From Rhizobiales bacterium dw_265 (GTDB lineage: Bacteria; Pseudomonadota; Alphaproteobacteria; Micropepsales; Micropepsaceae), in NCBI GenBank assembly GCA_018449595.1, contig JAAVUU010000001.1, positions 558,001-622,000 on the forward strand: a stretch of 64,000 bases of DNA, written 5' to 3'. This document shows positions 6,926-52,700 of this stretch, piece after piece (position 1 is the first letter of the stretch; the number at the start of each line of letters is the position of its first letter). The notes under the pieces were generated by a model. The model saw nothing but the letters and a program-made list of their open reading frames with translations. It had not been told where the DNA came from and searched no databases. The position numbers and the translations under genes are program-made.

Positions 6926-7252
6926 ATGGCATCCGGCGACACGCCAGGGCGCTTCCTGCGCGTCGAGGAGGCCGCGCGGTTTCTCGGCCTTTCGGCCCGA
7001 ACCCTCGAAAAGCACCGCACCTACGGCACCGGTCCCGTCTACCGGAAGCTCGGCGGCCGCATCGTCTACACGGTCGAGGATCTTGTCGCCTGGGCGAACC
7101 GCGGCACCCGCAATTCCACATCCGATCCCGGCAGGGACACGATCCTGCCCGCCCGCCGCAAGGATGAGCAGACGCCGCCCCGCGGCTCACGCCGGGGCCG
7201 CCGCCGCAAGCCCCCTGATAGCCCGGCCGACCGCGGGGAGACGCCGCGATGA
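6926..7252 (+). CDS. AlpA-like helix-turn-helix protein (MerR-type winged helix)
   Basis: The 108-residue protein opens with an excisionase-like HTH over residues 8-62: FLRVEEAARFLGLSARTLEK, then HRTYGTGPVYRKLGGRIVYT and VEDLVAWANRGT. The remaining tail is basic and disordered (GSRRGRRRKPPDSP). GGAG at 6914-6917 supports ATG 6926. Its stop overlaps the RPA start by four bases (ATGA at 7249-7252), the usual arrangement in this element family, so it is probably a DNA-binding partner or regulator of replication initiation. An excisionase-like role is a less likely alternative because no integrase is nearby. Confidence 0.85.
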   Translation: MASGDTPGRFLRVEEAARFLGLSARTLEKHRTYGTGPVYRKLGGRIVYTVEDLVAWANRGTRNSTSDPGRDTILPARRKDEQTPPRGSRRGRRRKPPDSPADRGETPR

Positions 7253-10088: not shown

Positions 10089-10333
10089 GCGCCGGGCCGG
10101 GCTGGACGCCCCCTCTGATCCGGCGTCTGGCGGGGTTGGCTGGGCAGACCCGAAACGGCGAACTAGAGGAACTAGAGCCAGATAAAACACCCGACCCATC
10201 AGGGTCGTATGTGGTTGGTTGGATTGGAGAAACACCCGAATTTTCGAGTCACACGGGCCATACACAGTCCGAAATCGTCCAAGAAATTCCGAGCTCCGAT
10301 GTATGGCGCGGCCAATCCGGGGCCATTTCATGA
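10085..10333 (+). CDS. Small coupled ORF between transglycosylase and relaxase
   Basis: This 82-residue frame starts at GTG 10085, overlapping the transglycosylase stop (GTGA), and stops at 10331-10333, overlapping the relaxase ATG (ATGA at 10330-10333). The same overlap style links the preceding genes of the operon, so its position argues for translation even though I recognise no family. The product is acidic (GELEELEPDKTPDPS) and has no signal or membrane segment. The tandem GAACTAGAG repeat at 10160-10177 reads in frame as ELEELE, while other frames there contain stops. The alternative is that this stretch is non-coding transfer-origin DNA and the frame is open by chance. Confidence 0.45.
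   Translation: MSAGPGWTPPLIRRLAGLAGQTRNGELEELEPDKTPDPSGSYVVGWIGETPEFSSHTGHTQSEIVQEIPSSDVWRGQSGAIS
10160..10306. other. Repeat-containing stretch before the relaxase, possible oriT
   Basis: The DNA is less GC-rich than its flanks and carries a tandem 9-bp repeat (GAACTAGAG twice, 10160-10177), a small hairpin CGACCC-ATCA-GGGTCG at 10192-10207, and an 8-bp inverted repeat GCCATACA (10257-10264) with TGTATGGC (10300-10307). Transfer origins of this kind often lie next to the relaxase gene. I found no RP4-like nick sequence here, so the assignment rests on position and repeats only. Confidence 0.3.
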
Positions 10334-22073: not shown

Positions 22074-22109
22074 CATCCGCGCCATTTGTGCCGCGTAATT
22101 GGGCGGCGA

Positions 22110-23669: not shown

Positions 23670-23678
23670 GCGCGCGGA

Positions 23679-23981: not shown

Positions 23982-23996
23982 GAACAAATGAAGAAC
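23982..23996. promoter_or_regulatory. LexA (SOS) box upstream of imuA-imuB-dnaE2
   Basis: GAAC-AAATGAA-GAAC at 23982-23996 is the reverse complement of GTTC-N7-GTTC, an exact match to the alphaproteobacterial LexA motif. It lies 30-44 bases before the imuA start and about 150 bases upstream of the divergent small membrane protein gene, so it may control both directions. Confidence 0.85.
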
Positions 23997-24025
23997 ATAC
24001 CGGAGGAAAAGCAGTTATTCCAGCC

Positions 24026-29674: not shown

Positions 29675-30562
29675 CTACGGCGTCGGCGGCGGATCATTGG
29701 CGATACGGTCGCTCCGCCGGCCATCCTCCGTCGCAAGGTCATGCACCACGGCATTGCGCAATCTGCGGAAGCGAAAAATCTCCACCGCCATTATGGGCAG
29801 CTTGGCTTGTGACTCCGCAGCCCATCGGTCCGCGATGCTCACCGAGGCCGCCTCCGCGAACGGTGTGGCATAGTCGGATCGAGCTTTTTCCAACCAGGAA
29901 CCGTTCTCATATTTTTTCCTGGTTGTGCGGAAATTCGCTGCGATGAACAGATCGCGGATACGATCCGACGCCGCACCGAGCGTCATCATTGCGGAAATCA
30001 GGTGCAGATGGAACATCTCGTTCACCTCGAATTGGGTCGAGGGCGCGGCTCTCTCATTGAAGATGGCCAAGCCGATGGCCCATCGCGCCGCTTTCATCAA
30101 ACCTTCGAAATCCCCACCGCTGCGGATGAGATATTTCTGCCATTCTTCCAGGACCGGCACTTTCACGCCCCGCGATTGCAGCGCCTCGATATGAGCGTCC
30201 AAGACCCGGAACGCTAGGGAATCGGTCTGGTTCATCGCGTGGCCGACATACTCGGGATCGACGTCCTCCGCATTGAGCCAGCCGTAACTGTCCGGCTCGT
30301 AGAGCCTCAATTCATGCAGCACCAAGGTGACCGCCTCCCTGACGGCATCGCTAAGCGCTTTCGAAGACGGGCCAGTTTCGCTCACATCGCCTTCCCTCTT
30401 GAATGTGGAAATCCGCCACTGGGGGACCAGGAACGGGCGGTAATTGCGCGCTAGATTATCCAATTTCCCTACAGAGTTGAAATCCCCCTTGTCCCTGACA
30501 GCATTCCGGCATTGAAGCTCGGCCGCAATGAATCCGACCAAGATACTTTGGGGCCAGGTCAT
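29675..30562 (-). CDS. Hypothetical protein overlapping traG head to head
   Basis: From ATG 30562 the product has 295 residues: MTWPQSILVGFIAAELQCRN, a middle region with GDFEGLMKAARWAIGLAIFN, and MFHLHLISAMMTLGAASDRI. It is mostly helical and soluble, with no catalytic motif that I can name. The start lies 34 bases inside traG on the opposite strand; a TTG start at 30541 would shorten the overlap but not remove it. It forms a unit with the small gene at 29471. It could be a defence or exclusion function carried next to the coupling protein, but this is a guess from position only. Confidence 0.55.
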   Translation of the reverse strand: MTWPQSILVGFIAAELQCRNAVRDKGDFNSVGKLDNLARNYRPFLVPQWRISTFKREGDVSETGPSSKALSDAVREAVTLVLHELRLYEPDSYGWLNAEDVDPEYVGHAMNQTDSLAFRVLDAHIEALQSRGVKVPVLEEWQKYLIRSGGDFEGLMKAARWAIGLAIFNERAAPSTQFEVNEMFHLHLISAMMTLGAASDRIRDLFIAANFRTTRKKYENGSWLEKARSDYATPFAEAASVSIADRWAAESQAKLPIMAVEIFRFRRLRNAVVHDLATEDGRRSDRIANDPPPTP

Positions 30563-32528
30563 CGCGGTAACCACCACCGCGCTGCTGTTTCTTTGGATTG
30601 CCACAGAGTGGACGGCCTACAAACTCGACTTCCAGCCCGAGCTTGGCGCGCCCTGGTTCAAGGCGCTTGGCTGGCCTGTTTATCAGCCGCATCTCTTTTT
30701 CTGGTGGTGGTTCGGCTACGATGCCTACGCCCACGACGTGTTTGTGCAGGGCGGCTACATCGCCGGCGCTGGCGGCATCGCCGCGTTCGCTGTCGCGCTG
30801 ACCCTCTCGGTTTGGCGCGCACGCGAAACCAAACGCGTCACCACATATGGTTCGGCCCGGTGGGCGAACCTTGATGAGATTCGTCAAGCCGGATTACTGG
30901 ATCCCGACGGTGTTGTGCTGGGCCGCTTGCACGGGCACTATCTTCGCCATAACGGCCCAGAACACGTCCTATGCTTCGCACCAACGCGATCCGGAAAGGG
31001 TGTCGGCCTGGTCGTCCCAACCCTTCTCACCTGGCCCGGCTCCGCCATCGTTCACGACATCAAGGGCGAAAACTGGACGTTGACGGCAGGCTGGCGCGCG
31101 CGTTTTGGCCGCGTCCTGCTGTTCGATCCCACCAACGTCGAGAGCAATCCCTATAATCCGCTGATGGAAGTCCGCCGCGGTCCCTGGGAGGTTCGCGACG
31201 TGCAGAACATTGCCGATGTGCTGGTCGATCCCGAAGGTGCGCTGGAGCGCCGCAACCATTGGGAGAAGACCAGCCACGCACTGCTTGTCGGCGCCATTTT
31301 GCATGTCCTCTATGCGGAGAAGGACAAGACCCTGGCGGGTGTCGCAAACTTCCTGTCCGACCCGAAGCGTGGCATCGAAGTGACCCTCAAAGCAATGATG
31401 AACACGCCTCATTTTGGCGACGCCGGGGTCCATCCGGTCGTCGCTAGCGCAGCGCGGGAACTGCTCAACAAGAGCGAGAACGAACGCTCCGGCGTTCTGT
31501 CGACCGCCATGTCATTCCTGGGCCTTTACCGCGATCCAGTTGTCGCACAAGTCACCAGCCATTGTTCCTGGCGCATACGCGACCTCGTCGAGGCCGACGC
31601 CCCGGCTACGCTTTACTTGGTGGTGCCGCCATCCGACATCAGCCGCACCAAGCCTCTGGTTCGGCTCATCCTCAACCAGATTGGCCGTCGCCTCACCGAA
31701 GAACTGAACTCCAAGACCCGCAAGCATCGGCTTCTGCTTATGCTGGACGAGTTCCGCGCGCTGGGGCGGTTGGATTTCTTTGAAACCTCGCTCGCCTTCA
31801 TGGCGGGGTACGGCATCAAGTCCTTCCTCATCGCGCAATCCCTCAACCAGATCGAGCAGGCCTACGGCCAGAACAATTCGATCCTGGACAATTGCCATGT
31901 GCGGGTGTGTTTCGCCACCAATGACGAGCGCACGGCCAAACGGGTTTCCGACACCTTGGGCACCACCACCGAACAGCGCGCCATGAAGAATTATGCCGGC
32001 AACCGTCTCAGTCCCTGGCTTGGCCATCTCATGGTTTCCCGCCAGGAAACCTCCCGCCCCCTTCTTACGCCGGGCGAAATCATGCAACTGCCGCCCGCCG
32101 ACGAACTTGTCCTGACCTCCGGCATCGCGCCGATCCGGGCCAAGAAGGCCAGATACTTTGAGGATCGGGAGCTTCGGGCCCGTATCCTGCACCCGCCGAA
32201 GGTCAGATCCGCGAGTGGGCCCCCTCGACCCATCGTTTCGGACCCTGGGATGGCCGGAAAGGAATGGAATGAGGTCGTGGAGGCGCCCGGCATGATTGAG
32301 CCGCCTGCGCCGCCCCGGCAAGCCAGCGACCGCGCCAATGGAAGCCCGCGCCGCGAGCCGGAACTTCCAACCCATGAGGATGTCCTTCCCCCGCCCAGCA
32401 AGGCCGCGCAGGAATTCGAGCCGCCACGTCAACCCACCCCCGCGCCCGCGCGAAGAAATCTCCAAAGGCGCTTCATCGACACGGCGCGCCAAGCCTCGCT
32501 CGATCTTGGCGATGATATGGGGATGTGA
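30528..32528 (+). CDS. traG: TraG/VirD4-type type IV coupling protein
   Basis: The 666-residue protein has two N-terminal membrane segments (VIAVTTTALLFLWIATEW; GYIAGAGGIAAFAVALTLSV), then a Walker A motif APTRSGKG at residues 151-158, VHDIKGENW, and a Walker B region LLLMLDEFRALGRLDFFETS followed by FLIAQSLNQIEQAYG. It is the ATPase that brings the relaxase-DNA complex to the transfer channel. The proline-rich C-terminal 100 residues are probably flexible. It overlaps the copG start by one base. In contrast to most relatives, the following trb genes are not adjacent; 5.6 kb of other genes intervene after copG. Confidence 0.93.
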   Translation: MNPTKILWGQVIAVTTTALLFLWIATEWTAYKLDFQPELGAPWFKALGWPVYQPHLFFWWWFGYDAYAHDVFVQGGYIAGAGGIAAFAVALTLSVWRARETKRVTTYGSARWANLDEIRQAGLLDPDGVVLGRLHGHYLRHNGPEHVLCFAPTRSGKGVGLVVPTLLTWPGSAIVHDIKGENWTLTAGWRARFGRVLLFDPTNVESNPYNPLMEVRRGPWEVRDVQNIADVLVDPEGALERRNHWEKTSHALLVGAILHVLYAEKDKTLAGVANFLSDPKRGIEVTLKAMMNTPHFGDAGVHPVVASAARELLNKSENERSGVLSTAMSFLGLYRDPVVAQVTSHCSWRIRDLVEADAPATLYLVVPPSDISRTKPLVRLILNQIGRRLTEELNSKTRKHRLLLMLDEFRALGRLDFFETSLAFMAGYGIKSFLIAQSLNQIEQAYGQNNSILDNCHVRVCFATNDERTAKRVSDTLGTTTEQRAMKNYAGNRLSPWLGHLMVSRQETSRPLLTPGEIMQLPPADELVLTSGIAPIRAKKARYFEDRELRARILHPPKVRSASGPPRPIVSDPGMAGKEWNEVVEAPGMIEPPAPPRQASDRANGSPRREPELPTHEDVLPPPSKAAQEFEPPRQPTPAPARRNLQRRFIDTARQASLDLGDDMGM

Positions 32529-32938
32529 TGCGCATCAAGCGGACATATTGGCTGCCATCGGAACTCGCTGGCCAGATCGACGATTATGCGAGCCGCAAAC
32601 GAATCTCCAAGACCATTGTGCTGGAGACGGCGCTGGCTTCCTTTCTGTCGCCGGATGGCCCCGACCGCTTGGAAGCAGCGCTGGCGCGTCGCCTGGACCG
32701 CTTCGGCCGCCAGATCGAGCGCCTTGAGCGGCATGCCACTATTACCAACGAGACGCTCGCCCTCTTCGTTCGTTTCTGGCTCACGCATACGCCTGCCCTG
32801 CCCGACACAGGCGAGGCGGCAGCACAAGCCAAAGGAAGTGATCGCTATGAGGGCTTCGTCGAAGCACTCGGCCGGCGCCTTGCGGGGGGCCGCACACTGT
32901 TTGACGAGATTGCGCAAGAAATGCCGTCGCACGAGTAA
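32528..32938 (+). CDS. CopG-like ribbon-helix-helix protein of the transfer region
   Basis: The 136-residue product begins MRIKRTYWLPSELAGQIDDY and ASRKRISKTIVLETALASFL, a ribbon-helix-helix DNA-binding domain. The rest is helical with an arginine-rich stretch (RRLDRFGRQIERLERHATI). The usual annotation in Trb-type elements is CopG family regulator, always between traG and trbB. ATG 32528 overlaps the traG stop (TGATG). It may regulate transfer genes or act at oriT. Confidence 0.85.
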   Translation: MRIKRTYWLPSELAGQIDDYASRKRISKTIVLETALASFLSPDGPDRLEAALARRLDRFGRQIERLERHATITNETLALFVRFWLTHTPALPDTGEAAAQAKGSDRYEGFVEALGRRLAGGRTLFDEIAQEMPSHE

Positions 32939-33184
32939 GCTTGACGCCCATCCGCAGCGCCAGGCGGGTATCATCGAGTAGCCGGGCTTAGATTTCCCCT
33001 TCGCCGGGAATTCCATACTCGGTAGGCGCGACCGCCATCCATAGTGGAGATGCCGGGACAACCAGCGGGTGCTTGCGGCCTTGGCAATCTTTGCTAGCCG
33101 GAAGGTAGGGGACGGACCGCGGGCCTCGATGAAGGGTCGCATCCGCCACGCTTTGCGACCGCACATCTCCTCCGGCCCGGAACG

Positions 33185-33658
33185 TCATGGATAACCACCA
33201 GCTTGTCGCAGATGGGCGATCACCGCGATCGCGCGGGGGTTCCAGAGACACCCGGCGGCCGCATCCCATCCATAGTACCAAGCCGTCCCTGGCCAATCCC
33301 GCCGTTCGCGACAATGCGGAGCAATGACGATGGCATCGTAACGCTGCGCGACCGCTTCCCATGCGATCCGGTCGACAATGCGCCGGCCGCGCTTGGTCTG
33401 GGTAGCAACGCCGTAGGTTTCGGTGAAGGCGTCGATGTCCTGGGCGTTCTTGAGCGTGACGACGCGGGAGCCTTGGTGCAGGACGATCTGGATCGCGTGA
33501 ACGTCGCGGGGCACATCGTCTAGGAACCTTGGCGCCTCGCCCCAGTCGCCTGGAAAAGCGCCGAACCAGAGGCCCCGTGGCATTGAGGAAGCGGTTGAGA
33601 ATTGCGGCACCCAAAATACCCCACCAAACGGCTCACGACTGAAATGGATCAGCCTCAT
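33185..33658 (-). CDS. Conserved hypothetical protein of mobile elements
   Basis: From ATG 33658 the 157-residue product starts MRLIHFSREPF and contains PRGLWFGAFPGDWGEAPRF, RVVTLKNAQDIDAFTETYG and YDAIVIAPHCRERR, then WYYGWDAAAGCLWNPRAI. I recall similar hypothetical proteins of phages and integrative elements that begin with the same MRL(I/L)HFS pattern; no activity is known. It lies at the boundary of the inserted pstS/SLBB block, just after copG. The 250 bases between copG and its stop carry no gene that I trust; two minus-strand frames there look like shadows. Confidence 0.55.
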   Translation of the reverse strand: MRLIHFSREPFGGVFWVPQFSTASSMPRGLWFGAFPGDWGEAPRFLDDVPRDVHAIQIVLHQGSRVVTLKNAQDIDAFTETYGVATQTKRGRRIVDRIAWEAVAQRYDAIVIAPHCRERRDWPGTAWYYGWDAAAGCLWNPRAIAVIAHLRQAGGYP

Positions 33659-33682
33659 GCCCACATGACGGCCCCGCCCGCA

Positions 33683-36600
33683 TCAATTGTTGCTGCTGAT
33701 AACCGCGAGGGAGGCGAGCGCCACGGCGAGCGAACTGAATATGCCCGTCACATCAAGAATTGTCTGTCGGGTGTCGATGGGGGTCAGATCGCGCGGCACC
33801 ACGATGGCGCTGCCTGGCCGCAGTATCGGGGCGTCATAGGAAAACCAGGAGGACTCTATGCGGTGCGCCCGGCCGTCCGGGTCCACCACGAAGGTCAGGG
33901 CGTCATCGGAGAACTGTGCAAACCCGCCGGCTTCCTTGAGATAGTCCTTCACGCTCATACCCGGCCGATAACTGTAGCTACCCGGCTGCATCACCTCGCC
34001 AAGCACGGCCACGGTGGAGGGCCGCTGCGGAATGAACACCACGTCGCCAGCTTCCAGCAAAGGGTCAAGCACCGGGTTGGATGCAAGGACGCTGGGATCG
34101 GCGGCAACGGTGATGCGGCCCAGCGCCTTCTGGCTGCGCAACTGAACGACGAAGGACTGCATGGCCGTAAAGCTCTCGGCCGGGATTTTGTCGTTGCCGA
34201 CCCGCGCCATGCCCGCCAGCAACTGAGTCTGAATCTCGTCGGCGGCACGGTTATAGCCGTCCTGTTCCAGCTTGGCGGCGGACCGGCGAAGGAAAACCGT
34301 GCCTGTCGGATAGGCGTATGGTGTCAGACCACCGACCTTTAGGAGTACCTCTGACAGATGCTCGCCGCGCACCAGGGGATAATTTCCGGGAAACCGAACT
34401 TCTCCCTGGACAGTGACGGAGCCAACGCCGGTCTGGCTGTAAACCTTGTTGAAGTGGAAATAGTCCCTGGGGCGCACCACGTAGCTGGCCAGGGCGCCTT
34501 TGTGCAGTGGCAGAATCTGATCTTGCGATTCCGAGCTACCCGCAGCGGTATCGGTGGCGGTGCTGAGGAGTTCGACGCCGCTCTCGTCGGCCCATTTGAC
34601 GGTGCCGCCGGCCGCTTCGACGACGTCTTGGAGAGTGGCATAATTGCCGACAAAATAGGTGCCAGGCCCGCGCACCGCGCCGTCCAACTTGACGCGGTAG
34701 TCGATCAGGAAGTTGAGCAGAACCAGGGGATCGATGCCCAGTTGGCGGGCGAGTTCGCCGAAGGTGTGGACTTCCTGATTGCTGGCATAGGAGCCGGGGC
34801 TGGTCGGCTGCTCCTCGAAATTGGCCGTGGGCGCGGTTCTGGGAAAGGCCGGAACCGCCGGACCATTGCCCTGGAAGCCGCCCTGCCCGCCACTCGGGCC
34901 ACCGTTCAGGCCGGAGAAGCCGTCCAGGCCAGATGTCGAATTGGGGACTTGGGTATTGCGGTATTGACCCGTCTGATAAGGCGAGAAGCCGCTGCCAGTA
35001 TCGGTTGCCGTCACACCATATTGCGACATCGCTAGAGCGGTCTGCTGAGCTTGCGCCAATTGGGCGGGCGAGGTCGCGGCATTGGGCCCGCTGGTCGCGG
35101 TCGCCAAGGCCTGCTGGTAGGCCGCTTGGCGCTGGTCAGCCAGGGGCGTGCCAGGAGCGGCCACGTTCAGCAGGGCGACGATGTCTGACCGCTGCATGTC
35201 GGTTGGTACGCCGCTGAAGTCGTCCAGGTTGAAATTGTCCGACTCAAGCTGGCCGGGCTGAAGGCCGAAGGGATTGTTGGGGGACACCGAATTGCCGGTG
35301 AGTTGTCCCGTTGCTGCGGCGGCGCCGCCGCTGGCCGCTTGTATTGCGGCGGCTGCGTCGGCCCGGTTGGTATCCAGCGGATTGCGGACCCGGTTCTGGT
35401 CGTAATTGAGCTTATCGATATAGGTCTTGACGATGTAGGACAGCAGTTCCGCCTCATTGAGGCTGACGGGGCGCACAATGTCATTGCTCTCCAGCGCTAC
35501 ATCTTCTGAACCTCGCAGCACCGCGGCTGGTGTGAAAGCCAGGAGCGTACGTTGCAGCGTTTGCGGATTGGTGCGGACGATGAGGCCGAACAGAGTGTAG
35601 GGATTGGCTCCCAACGCGCCGGGCGAACGCAGAATATCCGACAGTTTGGAGCCCTGGATTACAGCATAAGAGCCGGCAAGTCCGGTCGCGCCAGATAGCG
35701 TGGCTTGGGATTGCGGCCGATCGCCATTCAACTCGATCCGGAGGATTTCGCTGTCGTGAACCGGGGCGGTGAGGTTTTGCAGCGCGACCAGGGTGAGGTG
35801 GCCGTCGCCGTCGATCCTTTGCAGCGAGACGCGATAGCGCCCCTGCACTTCTTCCCCACCGGCGAGCGTGAGAAGGGCCTGGGCGGTGATGTTTTTGCCG
35901 TGCGGTGGCAGCTCATAGATGCCGGGCCGGCGCACCAAGCCGGCGATCGCGGCAGTAGCCCCCAGCGTCGGGACCACAATGCGGTCGCCATCGGCGAGCC
36001 GGGTGGCGGCCGAGCCGCCAATGCCGCTGAGCGCGCTATAGAGGTCAACGTCGATCTCGCGGTCGCCCCGCAGGATGCGAACGTCGCGCAATGAGCCGGT
36101 CTTCTTGACGCCGCCGGAAAGCAAGATGGCGTCGATGACAGAGGACAAGCCGGTGACAAGACGGACGCCCGGCAACATGACTTCGCCCGACACGAGCACG
36201 CTCACCTGCCGGATTCGGGCCAACGAAACCGTCGCTTGGGTCGCGACATAGGCGCGACCAATCGCGGAGTCCACATCCTTCCGGAAGGCGCCAAACGTCC
36301 TACCGGCAGCTGGGATTGGATTTAGACGTGGAAGCACCACCTGACCTTCGCGGGTCACAGAGGTGCGGATCTCACTATTTTCCTGGCCTACGAGGGAGAC
36401 GACGATCTGGTCGCCCGGGCCAAGGATGTAGTCGTCTGCGACAGCGCCGGTCTCCGGCACCTGCACCTGGCGGCCGACGCCAAGCTGGTCGTATCCGTAT
36501 TGACTGAGCCGAATACCTGCACGCGCGGAAATAATCTGCTCAAGGCGCGAAGGTGGCTGAAGCGTGGCGGACATGAATTGCGGCTGAAGCACCTGGCTCT

Positions 36601-37102
36601 GGGGGCCATTCGATGTGGTGTCGATGTTACCCCCGGCCCCATTCAATAGGCTGCCAATGCCGCCACCCATGCCGCCAGTCATCGACTTCAGTGCCGACAG
36701 AGGATCTGATCCACTCGTTTGTGCGCTTCCCGAATTGCACAGGGCCATGCAACTGACGATCACGAGAAGAACAACGGCTGCGCCACGCGAACTGGGTGCC
36801 CGTGCTTGGGCAATGCCCTTGTCGGGATTTGGGCTGTGTACGCACGCTTTCAGCGCGGTCAGAACCTGGCGGACGGTACGCGGGAGCCCCTCTTGGCGGA
36901 TCGTGCATTGTCGCGGCTCACCAAAGCACCACGCCATGACGCGCGGCATCGCGTGCAGAAAGGGACGGGCGGCGGCAACGGGATGCCGCCGCCCGATTTC
37001 GGCGACCTGGACGCGAGGGGTGGCGTCCGGGTACGAGACCGCCGACTGGGAAAAGAACAAGTGGCCAGAATGTGCCACCCAAGTGCGGCGCCTGAGAGTC
37101 AT
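33683..37102 (-). CDS. Polysaccharide export outer membrane protein (Wza/KpsD-like, SLBB domains)
   Basis: The 1139-codon frame contains a polysaccharide export domain (DDYILGPGDQIVVSLVGQEN) and several SLBB domains: VLVSGEVMLPGVRLVTGLSS, IAGLVRRPGIYELPPHGKN, VTVQGEVRFPGNYPLVRGEH, and VAVLGEVMQPGSYSYRPGMS. The middle 250 residues are rich in Q, N and G (GLNGGPSGGQGGFQGNGP). The C-terminal segment IFSSLAVALASLAVISSNN may span the membrane. A signal-like segment (RGAAVVLLVIVSCMALCNS) lies only near residues 105-123, so translation may begin later, for example at ATG 36949 or 36937. Such proteins export capsule or exopolysaccharide, but no other polysaccharide gene is in this window. It follows pstS by 23 bases. 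Confidence 0.85.
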   Translation of the reverse strand: MTLRRRTWVAHSGHLFFSQSAVSYPDATPRVQVAEIGRRHPVAAARPFLHAMPRVMAWCFGEPRQCTIRQEGLPRTVRQVLTALKACVHSPNPDKGIAQARAPSSRGAAVVLLVIVSCMALCNSGSAQTSGSDPLSALKSMTGGMGGGIGSLLNGAGGNIDTTSNGPQSQVLQPQFMSATLQPPSRLEQIISARAGIRLSQYGYDQLGVGRQVQVPETGAVADDYILGPGDQIVVSLVGQENSEIRTSVTREGQVVLPRLNPIPAAGRTFGAFRKDVDSAIGRAYVATQATVSLARIRQVSVLVSGEVMLPGVRLVTGLSSVIDAILLSGGVKKTGSLRDVRILRGDREIDVDLYSALSGIGGSAATRLADGDRIVVPTLGATAAIAGLVRRPGIYELPPHGKNITAQALLTLAGGEEVQGRYRVSLQRIDGDGHLTLVALQNLTAPVHDSEILRIELNGDRPQSQATLSGATGLAGSYAVIQGSKLSDILRSPGALGANPYTLFGLIVRTNPQTLQRTLLAFTPAAVLRGSEDVALESNDIVRPVSLNEAELLSYIVKTYIDKLNYDQNRVRNPLDTNRADAAAAIQAASGGAAAATGQLTGNSVSPNNPFGLQPGQLESDNFNLDDFSGVPTDMQRSDIVALLNVAAPGTPLADQRQAAYQQALATATSGPNAATSPAQLAQAQQTALAMSQYGVTATDTGSGFSPYQTGQYRNTQVPNSTSGLDGFSGLNGGPSGGQGGFQGNGPAVPAFPRTAPTANFEEQPTSPGSYASNQEVHTFGELARQLGIDPLVLLNFLIDYRVKLDGAVRGPGTYFVGNYATLQDVVEAAGGTVKWADESGVELLSTATDTAAGSSESQDQILPLHKGALASYVVRPRDYFHFNKVYSQTGVGSVTVQGEVRFPGNYPLVRGEHLSEVLLKVGGLTPYAYPTGTVFLRRSAAKLEQDGYNRAADEIQTQLLAGMARVGNDKIPAESFTAMQSFVVQLRSQKALGRITVAADPSVLASNPVLDPLLEAGDVVFIPQRPSTVAVLGEVMQPGSYSYRPGMSVKDYLKEAGGFAQFSDDALTFVVDPDGRAHRIESSWFSYDAPILRPGSAIVVPRDLTPIDTRQTILDVTGIFSSLAVALASLAVISSNN

Positions 37103-37125
37103 CGGGGTCTACTCTGAGGCGTCGG

Positions 37126-38142
37126 TTATGGCGTCACTTTGAGGGTCTTTGCCCAGGACGCCTCGATCTGCTTCACCACCTTGGCCGGGAAGGGTACATA
37201 GTCCAGCGCGGTAGCGTCCGCTGCGCCGTCCCTCAGCGCGTAGTCGAGAAATTTGAGAATCGCCTTGTTCTTGGCGGCGTCATAGTCGGCGCGCAGCAGC
37301 ATGTAGGTGGCGGCCGTGATCGGCCAGGATTGCGCGCCCGGTTGGTTGGTCAGAATGACATAGAAATCCTGCACACCGGAGAAGTCGGCGTTGGCGGCGG
37401 CGGCCTGGAAGCTTGCCAAGCTCGGCTTTACGCGCTTGCCGGCGGCATTGACGAGATCAGTCCAGACCAAATTCGATTGTTTGGCGTAGGCATACTCGAC
37501 ATAGCCGATAGAGCCGGGGGTCTGCTGGACGCTGGCGGCGACGCCGGCGTTACCCTTGCCGCCGATGCCGTTCGGCCATTCCACAGCGGTGTCGGCGCCG
37601 ACCTTGCTCTGCCATTCCGGGCTCACCTTGCCCAGATAGTTGGTGAAGTTAAAGGTGGTGCCTGACCCATCCGAGCGGTGCACGGTGAGGATCGCCGTGG
37701 CGGGCAGTTTGGCCTTGGGGTTGAGCTTGACGATGGCCGGATCGTTCCAGGTCTTGATCTCGCCCAGGAAAATTTTGGACAGAACATCGCCGTTGAGAAC
37801 CAGCTCGCCGGGCTTCACACCGGGCAGATTCACGATGGGGACGATGGAAATCACCACCTGCGGAAACTGCACCAGGTTGTTGGCGGCGATGTCGTCATGG
37901 CCGAGCGGCTTGTCGGAATTGGCGAAGTCCACGGTCTTGGCTTCGATCTGCTTGATGCCGCCGCCCGAACCGATGGCCTGGTAATTCACTTCTTGGCCGG
38001 TCTTGGATTGGTATTTCTGCGCCCAGACTTGCAGGACTGGGTAAATCGCCGTGCCGCCCGCGCCGGTGAGCTGGTCCGCGGATGCGGGTGCAACCGTCGA
38101 GAGCGCCGCTATGATGATGGCCGCGCCTATCGATGAACGCAT
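37126..38142 (-). CDS. pstS: PstS-type phosphate-binding protein
   Basis: From ATG 38142 the 338-residue protein has a signal peptide (MRSSIGAAIIIAALSTVAPA, cleavage after ASA) and the PstS pattern: LTGAGGTAIYPVLQVWAQKY, VNYQAIGSGGGIKQIEAKTV, DFANSDKPL and RSDGSGTTFNFTNYLG. PstS binds phosphate in the periplasm for the PstABC transporter, but no pstA, pstB, pstC or phoU gene is here. It forms a two-gene unit with the SLBB export gene. Some PstS-like proteins act outside the cell in adhesion, so a surface role is possible. AAAGGGA precedes the start. Confidence 0.88.
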   Translation of the reverse strand: MRSSIGAAIIIAALSTVAPASADQLTGAGGTAIYPVLQVWAQKYQSKTGQEVNYQAIGSGGGIKQIEAKTVDFANSDKPLGHDDIAANNLVQFPQVVISIVPIVNLPGVKPGELVLNGDVLSKIFLGEIKTWNDPAIVKLNPKAKLPATAILTVHRSDGSGTTFNFTNYLGKVSPEWQSKVGADTAVEWPNGIGGKGNAGVAASVQQTPGSIGYVEYAYAKQSNLVWTDLVNAAGKRVKPSLASFQAAAANADFSGVQDFYVILTNQPGAQSWPITAATYMLLRADYDAAKNKAILKFLDYALRDGAADATALDYVPFPAKVVKQIEASWAKTLKVTP

Positions 38143-38550
38143 CGCAAGTCCCTTTCCAGAATGGCGCCGCTTTCGCCCGCGCCGGCAACAACGGAGCATC
38201 CCCCGCGCGAGCTCCGCGCGGGCGTGACCAATGCCCAAGAGCCGACAGCCCCTTACTGACTCGACGGATCACCGGCCCGCGAGCGGAAATGAACATTCTG
38301 TAATCTTCCAGTGAGTTGCCGCAGCTTCAGGCTCGACGGCTTCTAACCGCCTCCACAGTTCACAGAGGAAGGCCGGCGCGGTCGTGCGGCGGCCCCTTCG
38401 AACCGTGCGACCTTGCCTTCCCACCAAACATTTCTATTTGCGCGCGATAGCCCGACGAAGCCTTTGATCTTGTTGCATTAGTCCAAATCAGGCTCTCTCT
38501 ACTCGACCCCGTTGAGGCCGCTATTCCCGGCCGATTTCGCGGGGTCCGAA
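38143..38550. other. Intergenic region between pstS and trbB
   Basis: About 400 bases separate two divergent units, so promoters for both must lie here. I see no canonical Pho box. ATTTCTATTTGCGCG at 38430-38444 is nearly identical (14 of 15) to ATTTCTATTTGCACG at 14936-14950, upstream of the adhesin. No gene is supported. Confidence 0.45.
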
Positions 38551-39516
38551 GTGAACATCCAGCCACTCCACACCGAAGCCTTTATCCGCGGCGCCCGGAT
38601 GCTGCGCACCGCGCTTGGCCAAGCGATCGCCGGCTATCTCGAAGATCCCGGCATCGTCGAGGTCATGCTCAATCCCGACGGCCGCCTCTGGGTCGATCGG
38701 CTCTCCGGCGGGCTTGAGGACACGGGCCAGCGCGTCAGCCCAAGCGACGCCGAGCGCATTCTGCGCCTGGTTGCCCATCATGTCGGCGCCGAGGTCCATG
38801 CCGGGCGCCCCCGCCTTTCTGCCGAGCTGCCGGAAACCGGCGAACGCTTCGAGGGACTGGTGCCGCCGGTGGTGGCCGCACCCTGCTTCGCCATCCGACG
38901 GCCGGCCGTCGCGGTCTTCACCCTCGACGACTATGTGGCCGCGAACATCATGTCTGCCGACCAGGCAGACCAGCTGCGCGATGGCGTCGCCACGCGCAAG
39001 AACATCCTGGTCGCCGGCGGCACCTCCACCGGCAAGACCACCTTGGTCAACGCGCTGCTGGCGGAAGTCGCCAAGACCAACGACCGCGTCGTCCTGATCG
39101 AGGATACCCGCGAACTGCAATGCGCCGCGCCCAACCTGGTCGCGCTGCGCACCAAGGACGGCGCTGCCTCGCTTTCCGATCTCGTCCGCTCCTCGCTGCG
39201 GCTGCGCCCCGACCGCATCCCCATCGGCGAGGTGCGCGGCGCCGAAGCCCTCGACCTGCTCAAGGCGTGGGGCACTGGTCATCCCGGCGGCATCGGCACG
39301 CTACACGCAGGAACCGCGATCGGTGCGGTGCGCCGTCTGGAGCAGTTGATCCAGGAAGCGGTGGTCACCGTTCCCCGCGCCCTCATCGCCGAAACCATCG
39401 ATCTCATCGCCGTTCTGTCCGGCCGTGGCGCTGCGCGCCGGCTCGCCGAACTCGCCCGCATCGAGGGCCTCGATGCACAGGGCGACTACATCCTCAAGCC
39501 CGCAGGAGAACTGTGA
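38551..39516 (+). CDS. trbB: TrbB, conjugal transfer ATPase (VirB11 family)
   Basis: The 321-residue protein begins at GTG 38551 ([18 protein letters not shown]); the frame is open from TTG 38512, but the family starts near here. Walker A is GGTSTGKT at residues 156-163, with [20 protein letters not shown] and the Walker B/His region [20 protein letters not shown] then [14 protein letters not shown]. It is the hexameric ATPase that energises pilus and channel assembly at the inner membrane. First gene of the trb operon; its stop overlaps trbC (TGATG). Confidence 0.93.
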
Positions 39517-45573: not shown

Positions 45574-46553
45574 TGCGTTTCTCTTCGCTTGTTCTTGCGC
45601 TCGCCGTAGCCGCCACGCTTGCCGGTTGTTCGACCTGGAAGCCGCCGGCGATCAAATATGACGACACGCCCGTCGCGGCCGTTGCCGATGCTCCGCCGCC
45701 CAGGCCGGTCCAGATCGTGGAAGTGCCCAAGCCCCTTCCCTTGCCGGACCAGCTCAAGCCCTTGCCCGAGGTCTCCGCGAGCGAACCGGCAGAACCACCG
45801 CGCGCCACGGTCGCACAGGCCAACAAGGAGGCCCGCATCGAACCCAGCCATGATGGATTTTTCAATGCGGTGCAGGTCTATCCTTTTTCGGACGGCGCTC
45901 TCTACCAGGTCTATGCCGCGCCGGGTGAGGTCACCGACATTGCGCTGGAAGCGGGCGAGCAATTGGTCGGCTCAGGTCCCGTCGCCGCCGGCGATACCGT
46001 GCGTTGGGTGATCGGCAATACCGAGAGCGGCACTGGTACGACGAAACGCACCCACATCCTGCTTAAGCCCACGCAAACAGGCCTCACCACCAATCTGGTC
46101 ATCAATACCGACCGGCGAACGTATCACCTGGAACTGCGCGCCGTGGACAAGACCTATATGGCGTCCGTGTCCTTCAACTATCCGCAAGATCAGCTGATCG
46201 CTCTGCGGGCCCAGAACAAGACCGCCGAGCAGATCGCGCCGGTGGTGACGGATGTGGACCTCAGCACGCTGCTGTTCCGCTATTCGATCGAGGGCGACAA
46301 TCCGCCCTGGCGCCCCTTGCGCGCCATGGACAATGGCCGGCAAGTCTTCATCCAGTTCCCTGCCGGAATCGCGCAAGGCGAGATGCCGCCGCTGATCGTG
46401 ATCGGCACGCAGGGCAACGACCAGATCCCGCGCTATCGCGTCAACGGCAACTACATGATCGTGGACAATCTCTTTGCCGCGGCCGAACTGCGGCTCGGCA
46501 CAGACCCGCAATCGATCGTGCGCATCGTCCGCACCGACGGAAAGACGCCGTGA
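45573..46553 (+). CDS. trbG: TrbG, outer-membrane-associated lipoprotein (VirB9 family)
   Basis: The 326-residue protein has a lipoprotein signal with LAGC and Cys19, a proline-rich linker, and a VirB9-like domain (GALYQVYAAPGEVTDIALEA; LRAVDKTYMASVSFNYPQD) ending in NGNYMIVDNLFAAAELRLG. It belongs to the core complex spanning the periplasm with TrbI. One-base overlaps on both sides (TGATG) indicate coupled translation. Confidence 0.93.
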   Translation: MRFSSLVLALAVAATLAGCSTWKPPAIKYDDTPVAAVADAPPPRPVQIVEVPKPLPLPDQLKPLPEVSASEPAEPPRATVAQANKEARIEPSHDGFFNAVQVYPFSDGALYQVYAAPGEVTDIALEAGEQLVGSGPVAAGDTVRWVIGNTESGTGTTKRTHILLKPTQTGLTTNLVINTDRRTYHLELRAVDKTYMASVSFNYPQDQLIALRAQNKTAEQIAPVVTDVDLSTLLFRYSIEGDNPPWRPLRAMDNGRQVFIQFPAGIAQGEMPPLIVIGTQGNDQIPRYRVNGNYMIVDNLFAAAELRLGTDPQSIVRIVRTDGKTP

Positions 46554-47788
46554 TGAGCGGCGATCCCAACAGCCAACCCCAAGCGTCCCAGCCCGACCAG
46601 CCCCAACCGTCGCAGCCGCAAACGCCGGGACCGGCGCCGGCCCATCCCAACGGCATGCGCCTTCGCGCAACGCCGCCGTCCGTCACGCGACTGTCCCGCC
46701 GCGTCCTGGTGGGTCTCGCCTCCGTCGCCATCGGGGGCATCGCCGTCGCGCTGGCGATCGCGCTCTGGCCTCATCCGCCGGCGGCGCCCAAAGAAGACAC
46801 GCACACCGCAAGCAACCTGTTGCCGGAAGCTGTGGCCGATCTGCCCAAGGATTACTCGCAGGTGCCGCAGGCTCCCAAGCTCGGCCCGCCACTGCCCGGT
46901 GACCTGGGCAAACCCATGCTGCAGGCGGGCGTGACGCCGCCGCCGATTGCCAGGCCGCAGACGCCGGAACAGCAGCGCGTCGCCCAGGAACGCGACGCCG
47001 CCCGCACGAGCCATCTGTTTGCGACGACCAACACGCCAACTGCGCCTGTCGCCGCGCCCGCCCCGTCGGTGCCCGCCCCACTGGCGGGGGATTCGCAGGC
47101 CTCTTCCGATCCGACCAGCACCGAGAATATGCAGGCGAATAAGATCGCCTTCGCCAACAGTGGCGGCGACCAGCAGAGTGTCAGCCCGGCCCGCATCGAA
47201 CGGCCGATCTCGCCTTACATTATTCAGACGGGATGGGTGATCAATGCGGCCCTAGCCAGGGGCACGAAATCCGACCTGCCGGGCGATATCCACGCCATGG
47301 TGACCGAGAATGTTTATGACAGTCCGACGGGGCGTTATTTGCTGATTCCGCAGGGCTCGATGCTCCACGGCCATTACAACAGCCAAGTGTCCTTCGGCCA
47401 AACCCGCACACAGATGGCCTGGACGAGACTGGAATTTCCCAACGGCGGTTCCATCAACCTTGGCCATCTTCCCGGCGCGGACGGCGAAGGTTATGCCGGC
47501 GTGGAAGACGGCGTCGATGAGCATTGGGATTCAATCTTCAAGGCGGCGGTTCTTTCCACTGTCCTGAGCGTGGGCGCTGAGGCAGGGACAAGCGATACCG
47601 AAAACAATCTGGCCCAGGCCATTCGCTCCGGCGCCTCCATGAGCATCAACCAGGCCGGTGAACAGATCGTGGAACGTAATCTCAATATCCAGCCCACCCT
47701 CACCGACCGATTTGGCCTGCCGGTCACGGTTTCGGTCGATCAGGATTTGGTTCTTGCGCCTTACGGCGAGCAGGAGGCGTCGCGATGA
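46553..47788 (+). CDS. trbI: TrbI, core channel protein (VirB10 family)
   Basis: The 411-residue protein has a proline/glutamine-rich N-terminus, one membrane segment (RVLVGLASVAIGGIAVALAI), a long disordered linker, and a VirB10 domain (ISPYIIQTGWVINAALARGT; VYDSPTGRYLLIPQGSMLHG; TRLEFPNGGSINLGHLPGAD). It links inner and outer membrane in the transfer channel. ATG 46553 overlaps the trbG stop; a GTG at 46550 is also in frame. Confidence 0.93.
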   Translation: MSGDPNSQPQASQPDQPQPSQPQTPGPAPAHPNGMRLRATPPSVTRLSRRVLVGLASVAIGGIAVALAIALWPHPPAAPKEDTHTASNLLPEAVADLPKDYSQVPQAPKLGPPLPGDLGKPMLQAGVTPPPIARPQTPEQQRVAQERDAARTSHLFATTNTPTAPVAAPAPSVPAPLAGDSQASSDPTSTENMQANKIAFANSGGDQQSVSPARIERPISPYIIQTGWVINAALARGTKSDLPGDIHAMVTENVYDSPTGRYLLIPQGSMLHGHYNSQVSFGQTRTQMAWTRLEFPNGGSINLGHLPGADGEGYAGVEDGVDEHWDSIFKAAVLSTVLSVGAEAGTSDTENNLAQAIRSGASMSINQAGEQIVERNLNIQPTLTDRFGLPVTVSVDQDLVLAPYGEQEASR

Positions 47789-48036
47789 GCAAGCTGAAAC
47801 TGGGCTTCGTGGAGACCGACAAATGGGTGCGCGTAACGGTCCGGCTGTCGCCGCAGACCTACCGCGATGTGGTCGCCTATGCCGCCGAACTCTCCAAGGA
47901 GACGGGACAGCCCGCGCTGGAGCCGGAAAAGCTCCTTCCCGTCATGGCGGAACATTTCATGGCCAGTGATCGCGGCTTCGCCAAGACCCGCCGCGCATCC
48001 TCCCCGCATGCGGCAGGCTCACAAAAGCCGTCGTGA
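47785..48036 (+). CDS. DUF2274 protein closing the trb operon
   Basis: The 83-residue protein begins MSKLKLGFVETDKWVRVTVR and continues LSPQTYRDVVAYAAELSKET, the DUF2274 pattern that regularly follows trbI. It is probably a small helical, ribbon-helix-helix-like protein. Its ATG overlaps the trbI stop by four bases. Its 3' end overlaps the convergent LysR gene by 18 bases. Confidence 0.88.
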   Translation: MSKLKLGFVETDKWVRVTVRLSPQTYRDVVAYAAELSKETGQPALEPEKLLPVMAEHFMASDRGFAKTRRASSPHAAGSQKPS

Positions 48037-48921
48037 CGCCGAAACCTCCTGCATGAAGCTGACAAAGCGGCCGACCACGGGGTCCTTGTTCTCGGGCACC
48101 CAAACCAGCTCCACCTCCAGTTCCGCATTGTCCTCGTCTATGGGTCGGAACACCACGCCCGGAACACGGACCTGCGCCTGGGCCTCCGTGACCAGCGTGA
48201 CCCCGAAGCCAGCGCCCACCAGGCCCAGGACCGATTGTTTGCTGGCGGCGTGACTGCCGAAGCGCGCGCCGCTTCCCAGGAAGCCGGCGTAATATTCGCG
48301 AGCAGTGTGACTATCCTCCCAGCCCTGGACCAGGAGGGTTTGCTCGCGCAGAGCCGCCCAGGTGAGGCGCTTGCGCCGGGCTAAGGGGTGGTCCTTGGGG
48401 AAGGCCACCAGCAACCGCTCACGATAGATCGGCTCCGCCACAGCATGCGGCCATAGCGTGTGCTTGGTCATCAAGGCGGCGTCGAGTTGCCGGTCCTCCA
48501 TCCCCTTGACGATATCCCGTTCATTGAGTTCATGGATCGTCAGATGGACGCCAGGATAGCGTTCTCGCCAAACCCGCAGAATACCTTGGAGCGGCTCTCC
48601 CACCGCGGGAAGCCGCACGGCCAGCCGAATACGTCCCACCTGGCCCAATCCGGCTCTACGAGCCGCCATGAGCAGATCGTCAAACTCGGCCAATATCCGC
48701 TTCACATGAATGATGATCTCCGCTCCTGCGGAGGTGGGGCGGATACTGTCGTGGTTGCGCTCAAAGACGGTGAAGCCCAGCTCTTCCTCGATGCGTTGGA
48801 TCCGCTTTCCCAGCGACCCAGCGTTGATTTCAAGGAACTCGGCCGCACGCACAAATCGGCCGCCGTCTGCGACGGCGAGCAAATAGCGCAGCGCCTCAAA
48901 ATCTATCGTGCTGTGTCGCAT
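48019..48921 (-). CDS. LysR-family regulator at the end of the trb operon
   Basis: From ATG 48921 the 300-residue protein has the LysR winged HTH (FEALRYLLAVADGGRFVRAA; FLEINAGSLGKRIQRIEEEL) and a substrate-binding domain (GRIRLAVRLPAVGEPLQGIL; VWRERYPGVHLTIHELNERD). A LysR gene of this kind, convergent to trbI-DUF2274, is typical of alphaproteobacterial Trb-type elements and may control transfer in response to an unknown ligand. AGGGCGG precedes the start. The frame is open to 49017 but the extension lacks the HTH. Confidence 0.9.
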   Translation of the reverse strand: MRHSTIDFEALRYLLAVADGGRFVRAAEFLEINAGSLGKRIQRIEEELGFTVFERNHDSIRPTSAGAEIIIHVKRILAEFDDLLMAARRAGLGQVGRIRLAVRLPAVGEPLQGILRVWRERYPGVHLTIHELNERDIVKGMEDRQLDAALMTKHTLWPHAVAEPIYRERLLVAFPKDHPLARRKRLTWAALREQTLLVQGWEDSHTAREYYAGFLGSGARFGSHAASKQSVLGLVGAGFGVTLVTEAQAQVRVPGVVFRPIDEDNAELEVELVWVPENKDPVVGRFVSFMQEVSASRRLL

Positions 48922-49090
48922 TCCGCCCTGTTTTATTGTTGTGGACTGTGAGCTACGCCTGCACTCTCCTTCGACCTTTCCACTGACCCCGGCATTCGGG
49001 ACCGCCAGCAACACCACTCACGCAATCAATCCGACACCGGGACTTTGGCTGGGCGGAGCCCTGCGCAAATTCCGCGACCCCTTTTCGCGA

Positions 49091-49723
49091 TCATTGGACC
49101 GTCACCGCCGCCGCCGGGGCGGCGCGCGCCAGCTTGAAATCGATCGTCGTCTCCTTCGCATCCAAGCCCGCGACAACGATGGGCGTTATGTCCATATCGG
49201 TATTTCCGGCGAGAATGGATTCACGGGCCTCCAGCAGACCGCAATGCTGTTGCCGGTACGCCGCGTTGATGATCGGCCGAAGGTCGGCGGAAATCCGAGC
49301 CACCACTGTCTGCCGCGTCGACTCCAATGCCCTACCGGCATCTGCAGCGTCACTGCGAAAATCCTGGAGTCGCTTCGCAAGATCGCGGCTGCGCTTCTGG
49401 TAGTCTGCGGCGGACAGAGTTTCCTTCTGGCTCTCTAGAAGCTGACCTTCGCTCGATATTGAGGCTTGCTCGGCGTTGAAGTGGCTTTGAACCTCATCCC
49501 GCATATGGCGATAGCGATCATTGGCCACCTTTCCGATCTTGGAATCGTCGATCACGGCTTGACGGCTGAGGATGCAGAGACCCGGTATGAGCGGTCCACC
49601 GTTTGCCATTTGCGTCTCCACTGGGACTGAGGCACCCGCCGACGCTACTGGCCAGTTGCTGGCCACCCACACAATACCCCCGGAGGCCACCGCGATCAGT
49701 GCATAGGAAATATAGGTGCGCAT
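49091..49723 (-). CDS. OmpH/Skp-like periplasmic chaperone
   Basis: The 210-residue protein has an N-terminal hydrophobic segment (YISYALIAVASGGIVWVAS), then LCILSRQAVIDDSKIGKVAN and long helices (DEVQSHFNAEQASISSEGQL; LSAADYQKRSRDLAKRLQDF), the pattern of OmpH/Skp chaperones. Skp holds outer membrane proteins in solution in the periplasm. It starts 15 bases after the TpsA stop, with GGGAG upstream, so it is the last gene of the secretion cluster and may be dedicated to the very long TpsA or to its TpsB pore. Confidence 0.8.
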   Translation of the reverse strand: MRTYISYALIAVASGGIVWVASNWPVASAGASVPVETQMANGGPLIPGLCILSRQAVIDDSKIGKVANDRYRHMRDEVQSHFNAEQASISSEGQLLESQKETLSAADYQKRSRDLAKRLQDFRSDAADAGRALESTRQTVVARISADLRPIINAAYRQQHCGLLEARESILAGNTDMDITPIVVAGLDAKETTIDFKLARAAPAAAVTVQ

Positions 49724-49738
49724 CAACTACTCCCTGCT

Positions 49739-52700
49739 TTAGTTCGCCTGTGGTGCGTTGCGCCTGCGGCGTTGGTCTTCCGTATCGGCATCGGCGCCGC
49801 CATAACCGATCACTTCGACCGTGAAAACCGATGGGAATTGCGCCGGAGGTGCTGGAGGCGCCGAAGTAGCTGCGCGGGTGGCCGCGCCCGACGCGTTCGA
49901 CGCCGCCGCCAGTGCTCCAATGTTGGGCGCGACAAAGACCGGCAGGCCAGTGGCCGTGCCGCCGAACGTGATATTGCCGGCATTGAGCACCGCGACGGCC
50001 GCGATGTTGATGTTGCCGGAAACCCGGATGCCAGCATCGCCGGCATCAACAAAACCATTCGGCGCGATAAGATCTACATCGGCTGGGGGTACATTGGGCA
50101 AAGTTTGCAACGTGCCAATGCCACCGCCCGTTGCTAGCCCCGCAAGATCGAGGAGAGGCGCGCCCGTGGTTGGATCAATGAGAAACCGTGTCGGAGGCGC
50201 AGACTGCAACGTCTTAGCCGCACTGCCCGCTGCAATGTTGCCGAGACTCGACCAGATGATTTCGTTGCCGCCCTCGAAGGTGAAAATTCGGGAGGTTCCG
50301 ACGGTCACATTGCCCTTTGTAAAGATGCTGACATTGCCGCCCTGAAGCGTGAGAATACCCTGATCCAGAGACTGCTTGTCACCAAGGTCAAATCCAACGA
50401 GGAGTTGTCCGCCCGGATCGAGAATATCAATATCGCCACCTGTGGAGGTTTTGATCTCGCGCGATGTGAGCGAGATGTCTCCGGCATAGGTCGTCGCTGG
50501 AAATAAGGCGTCAATCGCCTGGAAACCCTCGAAATAAACGCCAAACCCAGCGCTAGTTGGATCGTTATGGTCGCGTCCGGCGTCGCGCAGGACAAGATAG
50601 AACACGTCGAGCGCTAGTTTGGCTTTCTGTTCCGGAGTTAGACTCTGGAATGTAGTCCAGACTTGGCCATTGCTCTCGCCCTTCAGCCCCATAAGCTCCG
50701 CTAGGTCGGGCAGATATCGCGTGGCTTCGTCGCCCGCGGTCGAGGGATTGAGGAATTTGCTTGCAAAGACGTCTACGTCGAGCCCGCTCCCAGCCAAGCC
50801 AGATCCGGGCATAGCGCTTAACCCGCCGGCGGCAATAATCGTCGCGCCCTGGTCTGACGGGAGATAGGGATCGCGCGCGTTGCCAATGCTGACAAGGCCC
50901 ACCCCTGTTCCATCCGTGTTAGCAGCGCCGACGCCCAGATTAAGGTTGCGCCCCGCCAGCACTTCGATTGTCCCCGGACCGCCGACGGATATATCACCAG
51001 ACAAAGGAGCGCTGAGAACCGCAGCCACAAAATTACTGGGAAGGTTCGAGGCGTTAACCGCCTGCAATTGCGTTTGGCGATCCGGGCTGTTGAGGTCATA
51101 GGCAACGATGTCGCGGCCAGCCTGTACGATCGTCGTATCGTCGGGCGTGTTGTTTTGCAAATAGAGGGCAATGTCGAGAATGTCCTGCCCGGCCAATATC
51201 CGAGCCGGCTTTCCGGCCAACAGTGTCAGATCGGCAACGTCACCAGTTCCAGCATAGAAATATATCGGTGCCGGATCGTTCAGGTGCAGCAACCCGGGCG
51301 TGTGAAGGGCATCCTTGATAGCGGTGTTGGCATAGACGCCCGTGGTTGAGCCGGATTCTGCGAACAGCTGATTGAAGCTCGTCAGCGCAGCTGTGAGCTG
51401 TGCCGCCGTCGCCAATTGCAATGGGGTTCCGTCCGGGCCCGCTGGCACCAGGGGGTTCCCCGGATCGGGGACACTGCTCGGATTGGCGTCAGACAGATTG
51501 AACTTTGCGCTCGCATAACTCTGTAGCGATTGGCCGCTAAGGGTAATGAAGCCCGCCGCTTGGTAGCCGTTGATGGAGCCAGCTGCCTCCAGGTTCACTG
51601 TGCCAGTCGCCGATGGCGCGAGAGTGAAATTTCCCAGCGGATTTATGTCGCCGCTAAATGCAGTGACTTTGAGCGTCGCGGGCATCAGCCCGACCAGGCT
51701 CCCGTAAACCGCTCCGCTGGCCGACGCGTCGGTTAAGCGCAACCACGGCCGAACCGTCGAAACCGAGTGATTGTTTGAGTTGCTGACATACCCTTGCACG
51801 TTGGTGATCCAAGTCGTCAGTGAACCGGCACTTGCCGTCGCGCTTCTCAGGTCAACGTCGCCACCAAGAGAAGACACCGAAACTGTGTCGTCGGAACCGT
51901 AAGTGCTGAAATAGCTCCGGTCGCCATAGCCATTGTTTTCGCCGGCAGGCAACAAGAATGGATTGGCCACGGGCCCAAGCAGAACATCGCCATTGGCTGA
52001 AACATTAAAGTCGCCTTGGCCCAAGAACAATGTTGTCGGCAGCCAAGTGTTGGGATCATTTGATAGGTTGAGCTGGCCAGTGTTGAGAAGGCCCAACGCC
52101 GTGCGGGTGGCATTTGTCGTGATATCGCCCCCGGCCGAAAGGGTGCCCTGGCCCTTTTCGACGTAATAGACGCCGGCATTGATGTCGCGTCCGGCCGTCA
52201 CGCTCACGTCGCCGCCACCATACTCGAATAGGGGCTGATCCGCCGCATTGTTGTCGACCACGCTGCCAGATGCCGTGATGGTGGTCGTTTGATAGGGAGA
52301 CCATGCATCGGTTGGCGCTACCGCATCCACATTCTTGACGTCGCGACCGGCATGCAGGGTGACATTGCCCCCGCCCAATGCGCCGACGCCCTCGAAGAAG
52401 TTACTATAGTCCACCCACCAGGCGGTCGACCCGCGATCCAGATTGTTGGTCGGCGCAAACACGCCGCCCTGAAGATTGTCACGGTGATACAGCCAGTTCG
52501 ACGGCAGCTCCTGCGTGGAATCGTCGGCGCCGTTGGACAAATGGATGATGTCTTCGCCAGCGGTGATGGAGACGTTTCCGCCATTGGACGCAAACTGCGC
52601 GGGATAAGCCGGGCCGATCGTGCTGCCCAGCGTGTTGGTCGCGCTGTTCACGAACGCCGTATTGGGGGTGTCAAAGGAGTAAGCGGAGTTACCGTCGGTG

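Follow-up and report, generated by a model that had tools for sequence, protein, structure and literature searches.

A pstS-SLBB exporter pair between copG and trbB of a Tn4371-related conjugative element: a candidate surface or matrix operon

Tn4371-related ICEs of the alpha types (alphaI/alphaII) carry a traR gene downstream of mpf and in reverse orientation, and a precedent exists for the coupling of traR to cargo genes (PMC11448139). Moreover, a variable insertion hotspot has been described before traR-traG in Tn4371-like elements (PMC2789088). The element described here was examined in a window of 64,000 nucleotides from Rhizobiales bacterium dw_265, and it continues to the right of this stretch. 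It resembles these ICEs in its RepA, relaxase, TraG-CopG and Trb backbone and in a LysR gene that follows the mpf genes in reverse orientation and towards which cargo is read (Table 1). Unlike them, it carries a cargo of surface genes and a pstS-SLBB operon within the copG-trbB junction. The exporter of this operon shares the Poly_export and SLBB domains of Wza-type OPX proteins and of the large SLBB exporters linked to yjbH, and its closest relatives (~60% identity) adjoin yjbH in other species of the genus. Unlike Wza and the yjbH-linked exporters, the cargo copies have pstS upstream and neither YjbH, Wzc nor a polymerase adjoining. The PstS protein is full length with its phosphate-binding motifs present, as in other PstS proteins, but it lacks pstCAB, and its gene is joined on a mobile element to that of an outer-membrane exporter. 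The protein families are already known, and what is new is the pstS-SLBB pair and its two slots.

Table 1 Features of the element in the window (gene calls are a simple GC-based pick).
Feature	Coordinates	Strand	Evidence and remarks
RepA-type replication initiator (Pfam RPA)	7249..8127	+	PF10134, E 5e-89
Relaxase, DUF3363 / MobA-VirD2 nuclease domain	10219..12057	+	PF11843, PF03432; 69% identity in C20
YadA-type trimeric autotransporter, 1331 aa	15058..19053		YadA domains; between relaxase and traG
TraG coupling protein	30528..32528	+	NCBIfam PRK13876, 1158 bits
copG-like gene	32525..32938	+	directly precedes the insert; resembles the C15b copG
Small ORF, 159 aa	33185..33664	-	PHROGs phrog_8582, E 3.4e-13; phage-type family without an assigned function
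SLBB exporter, 1139 aa	33683..37102	-	Pfam Poly_export, SLBB, SLBB_2
pstS, 338 aa from ATG at 38142	37126..38142	-	TIGR00975, 385 bits
Right border of the insert	38469..38550	+	C20-element homology resumes, blastn 77.6% over 223 bp
trbB, TrbB conjugation ATPase	38512..39516	+	TIGR02782, 444 bits; 83% identity in C20
TrbI, last large trb gene	46550..47788	+	72% identity to C20 TrbI (Pfam TrbI match)
Small ORF at the DUF2274 position	47785..48036
LysR, traR position behind the mpf genes	48019..49017	-	Pfam HTH_1, LysR_substrate; convergent with trbI
OmpH-like protein, second slot	49091..49726	-	Pfam OmpH, E 2e-13; read towards LysR
Giant FHA-type exoprotein, 4483 aa, second slot	49739..63190	-	relative of a C15b protein

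ORF and family searches bore out the genes, strands and coordinates that an earlier note had given for the 5.6-kb block, which lies on the opposite strand between the copG stop and the likely trbB start, a GTG at 38551. Within the block, pstS precedes the exporter gene on the same strand, and 23 bp separate the pstS stop from the SLBB start. That the block was inserted inside the conjugation module is shown by comparison with another Trb element of the same genome (C15a; C15:334-338 kb), which has no insert and in which copG and trbB overlap by 4 bp. At the left border, the DNA is homologous to two further elements, C15b and C20, up to or nearly up to the 3' end of copG; homology to C20 resumes at about 38469, shortly before trbB.

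A search of the complete set of 21 contigs to which the window belongs (4.2 Mb) revealed two further pstS-SLBB pairs, at C15:676-681 kb (the C15b element) and at C20:116-121 kb, and all three pairs adjoin genes of Trb elements. The two additional pairs have their genes 4 bp apart and are each followed by a LysR gene, which shares 62% (C15b) and 54% (C20) identity with the LysR of the window. The window copy shares 81-82% identity with C15b and C20 for SLBB and 79-85% with C20 and C15b for PstS, and the DNA in common with it is bounded by the start of pstS and the stop of SLBB. The block is not a product of chance, as three loci carry both genes in intact form. The six genes have all kept their full length, and dN/dS values of 0.11-0.14 for PstS and 0.15-0.23 for SLBB indicate that both are maintained by purifying selection. 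Between C15b and C20, SLBB identity is patchy (91-99%) compared with 73-85% for pstS, which points to gene conversion between these two exporter copies. We also considered an IS-borne transposon as the vehicle of the pair and rejected it, as no convincing terminal repeats were found and the shared DNA stops at the two genes.

The window PstS scores 385-388 bits against TIGR00975 and PRK10918, above the TIGR00975 cut-off of 205, and aligns over its full length with PDB entries 8ods (E 5e-110) and 5wnn. The motifs GAG.T, IGS.GG, SD.PL and R.DGSGT are kept in these alignments. No pst permease genes (pstCAB) adjoin any of the three pstS copies. We take the motif residues to contact phosphate, as they do in E. 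coli PstS. The exporter combines PF02563 (E 4e-12) with four stretches of PF10531 and two of PF22461, and a profile built from the three copies matched Wza (2w8h) best among solved structures (E 5e-14). As read by eye from the sequence, the window copy has a lipobox-like IVSC motif, and the C15b and C20 copies resemble signal peptidase I substrates. In the window block and next to the C15b copy, no gene for a kinase, a polymerase or YjbH was found, and no glycosyltransferase, YjbH or Wzx/Wzy gene is present near the window copy; at C20, glycosyltransferase genes lie roughly 5-16 kb upstream. pstS and SLBB form one two-gene operon, and the view of them as a true pair that lacks pstCAB and a polymerase nearby stands.

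The third gene of the block does not belong to this unit, since it is missing from the other two copies. The small ORF has phrog_8582 as its only clear family match; profile searches returned no Pfam or NCBIfam family. It has no second copy in the genome, is absent beside the C15b and C20 pairs and has no relatives in the viral contigs or plasmids searched. A single-sequence structure model reached a pLDDT of 48. This phage-type ORF joined the block as a lone extra.

To place the insertion among related elements, we compared the copG-trbB junction across Trb elements. The junction is empty in five of them, namely C15a and the plasmids pBAL398.2 (Rhodopseudomonas), pCHQ1 (Sphingobium), pOT1-2 (Haematobacter) and PPGU16_p2 (Paraburkholderia). 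It is filled with other genes in the C20 element, which has a single opposite-strand 3-hydroxyisobutyrate-dehydrogenase-like gene, and in four plasmids. Of these, Methylocystis pMpar-1 has a nuclease/helicase block of 13 kb and Mesorhizobium pB2-1-1 a block of 15 kb, whereas Bradyrhizobium p187_1 has a transporter gene and an Enterobacter plasmid a hydrolase gene. We left Sphingopyxis pMC4 and Paracoccus pPAN2, which have other genes before trbB, out of the count because no traG-copG was seen there. The contiguity of traG, copG and trbB in most relatives, as put forward earlier, is therefore half right, and the interruption is not special to the window element, as several elements hold unrelated genes at this position. 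Because the junction is variously empty or filled with unrelated genes, these comparisons mark it as a general cargo slot, of which a narrow literature search found no prior description. Beyond trbI and the DUF2274 and LysR genes that follow it comes a second slot. Its genes are read towards LysR in the Methylocystis, Paracoccus, Sphingobium and Bradyrhizobium elements, and the Haematobacter element differs here. In the window the pair occupies the copG-trbB slot, and the second slot is taken by OmpH and the giant FHA protein; in C20 the pair occupies the second slot. In C15b it likewise stands behind the traR-like LysR, in the order traG-copG, no trb genes, then LysR, SLBB and pstS. Cargo order differs at each of the three loci, and the pair moves between the two slots as exactly two genes.

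Adjacent pstS and SLBB genes were sought in further genomes, as the earlier note had proposed, and were found in this genome only, in its three copies. Among 69 same-genus genomes the two genes lie far apart or on separate contigs, and no adjacency was seen among the fetched loci of 385 class genomes; for most relatives the flanks covered 1.5 kb, and several loci lie at contig ends. In plasmids, no SLBB match reached 60% identity or spanned 80% of the query. A contig scan with only two short peptide patterns, which says little about distribution, returned one relative. The earlier note had weighed uniqueness to the strain together with decay of one gene as evidence against a pair: uniqueness was found, as the pair was seen in this species only, and decay was not. 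In the PstS tree the three cargo copies form one clade (99/93). This clade falls inside a group of solo PstS proteins from across the genus, where the solo copy of this genome is nearest to it, with a weak sister position (93/49). A quick tree of SLBB again unites the three (100) and places them next to exporters from other species of the genus; the copy from the genome's own polysaccharide locus does not stand beside them. Since both gene trees recover the copies as a monophyletic group, the pairing probably arose in a single event in this lineage.

The relatives of each gene have other neighbours. Exporter relatives in the genus and class adjoin yjbH in many cases, at polysaccharide loci; the remaining ones showed no YjbH match within the short flank. 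A Porin_O_P gene adjoins pstS in two cases, one from the same subfamily (L138) and one from a more distant one (L018). At six loci across the genus (L017, L136, L138, L140, L141 and L144) a solo pstS without pstCAB has as its neighbour an exported-looking protein of 415-490 aa, which is the Porin_O_P protein at L138. One species (G018) shows the order FHA-OmpH-SapC-pstS with the exporter absent; its pstS was recruited separately and is not sister to the cargo copies (AU p 0.025, for a group chosen after tree inspection). Another (G073) has Porin_5-FHA-OmpH-SapC-DUF4915 with no pstS adjoining.

The remaining cargo of the element bears on what the pair may do. The trb cluster extends from trbB to 47788. 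To the right of the window, the same element encodes IalB, two ShlB proteins, a TPS exoprotein with YDG repeats, Porin_5, TonB, ExbD, ExbB, FecR and an ECF sigma factor. A homologous set is present in C15b, with SapC and DUF4915 adjoining pstS; its FHA counterpart (4136 aa) shares only ~30% identity with the giant window protein and has a Pfam DUF3739 domain (E 1e-34) towards its C-terminus. Upstream of the C20 pair lie genes for SapC, OmpH, glycosyltransferases, methyltransferases and a Capsule_synth protein. Each of the other three Trb elements in the genome has a relative of the YadA-type autotransporter (~60-79% within the aligned part), and TraG has four further relatives in the genome. 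Beside these genes, window positions 19829-29413 hold a mutagenesis-type cassette (SRAP, a dinB-like polymerase, imuA/imuB-like genes and a DnaE2-like polymerase), several genes of which have 82-97% identical copies on C15. A gene for a calcineurin-like/PhoD-like phosphatase lies on the opposite strand at 3820-4818 of the same element, and a minus-strand ORF of 309 aa without a Pfam match precedes traG (29675-30604). The C15b element (L014, C15:668000-687000) has traG and copG, with the trb genes missing where its cargo begins, and its relaxase (80%) is kept ~30 kb away (L161). A TonB/ExbD/ShlB cluster at locus L095 contains a fusion of ExbB with DUF2341 and a laminin-G-like domain (12273-14201). 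The window element is flanked by a tRNA-Ser at C1:540.2 kb and, at C1:642903-644150, by a gene that its sequence marks as tyrosine-recombinase-like; a repeat of the tRNA-Ser 3' end as right att site was sought and no such repeat was found, nor were the ends of the element.

Because the same elements carry FHA, OmpH, SapC, YadA and glycosyltransferase genes, we favour, with some confidence, the reading that pstS-SLBB is a surface or matrix cargo operon in the copG-trbB slot of a Tn4371-related conjugative element. A role at the surface or in the matrix, suggested from the start, is still the best reading given this cargo. The exporter would move or anchor an extracellular polysaccharide made by host genes, and PstS would be exported and bind phosphate outside the inner membrane, where it might feed the host Pst permease or enrich phosphate at the surface. 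Together with the other surface cargo, the pair could then serve surface attachment or matrix formation. Their persistent linkage suggests that PstS and SLBB may act together. Against this reading stand the failure to find a pair outside one species among the 69 same-genus and 385 class genomes, so that the three copies count as one evolutionary event, and the missing glycosyltransferase, YjbH and Wzx/Wzy genes near the window copy; PstS could also be a mere extra phosphate scavenger unrelated to the exporter.

This last point leads to the alternative that two unrelated cargo genes were joined by history, with pstS as an extra high-affinity scavenger working with the host Pst permease and SLBB as an extra exporter. 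The same pstS subfamily does stand solo elsewhere in the genus, without pstCAB and without SLBB, and the association arose only once. However, a spacing of 4-23 bp has been kept at three loci, though nothing outside the pair is common with the window copy, and both genes, and only both, went to the new slot. We consider such a merely historical union possible but rather unlikely.

A phosphate-starvation module would be a different explanation. In P. aeruginosa, the PUMA3/Pdt two-partner system comprises a TPS adhesin driven by PhoB and an ECF sigma factor (PMC2729926, PMC4971064), and pstS could be the phosphate part of a comparable module. The window element indeed resembles PUMA3/Pdt in its ECF sigma, anti-sigma, TpsA/TpsB and ExbB/ExbD/TonB set, and the ECF sigma, FecR, ShlB, ExbB, ExbD, TonB and TPS exoprotein genes to the right of the window are of the kinds that the excerpts of these descriptions give for the VreI regulon. 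Unlike in PUMA3/Pdt, the regions upstream of the three pstS copies and the two FHA genes yielded no Pho box (best 9/14 matches, no better than shuffles), and the same excerpts name neither PstS nor SLBB as PUMA3 parts. FHA-SapC-pstS also failed as a class-wide module, with pstS in 0/35 SapC flanks of the class and absent from an Azospirillum FHA-SapC plasmid locus. The missing Pho box likewise counts against our preferred reading and leaves the low-phosphate induction proposed in the earlier note without sequence support. Overall, a Pho-starvation module appears very unlikely. Very unlikely, finally, is that homologous recombination between related elements dropped the pair as debris of a rearranged element with no selected function: the C15b element without its trb cluster, the unlike cargo orders and the patchy SLBB identity would fit, but six full-length genes under the low dN/dS values given above and the intact traG-copG and trb genes to the left and right of the window insert do not.

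Returning to the surface or matrix operon, cargo faces the traR-like LysR at all three loci, as the pair itself in C15b and C20 and as FHA-OmpH in the window. As it points towards a traR-like regulator, expression of the cargo may also raise transfer of the element, and by analogy this arrangement suggests the same traR-cargo coupling as in the ICE precedent (PMC11448139). A stronger version, in which transcription of the matrix operon runs into LysR at two of the three loci and couples transfer to a surface-attached, matrix-producing state, with the slot behind LysR in alpha-type elements acting as accessory region 3 does in the Tn4371 family, is speculative and in our view unlikely.

Taken together, the pair joins a phosphate-binding protein to a polysaccharide exporter as a single mobile unit under selection. 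Two cargo slots, one between copG and trbB and one behind the traR-like LysR, are shown for conjugative elements of a widespread class. If cargo transcription drives traR here too, a coupling of transfer to a surface-attached lifestyle would become directly testable outside the Tn4371 family proper. Our analysis suggests that the element acts as a vehicle for genes of a cell-surface or biofilm lifestyle.
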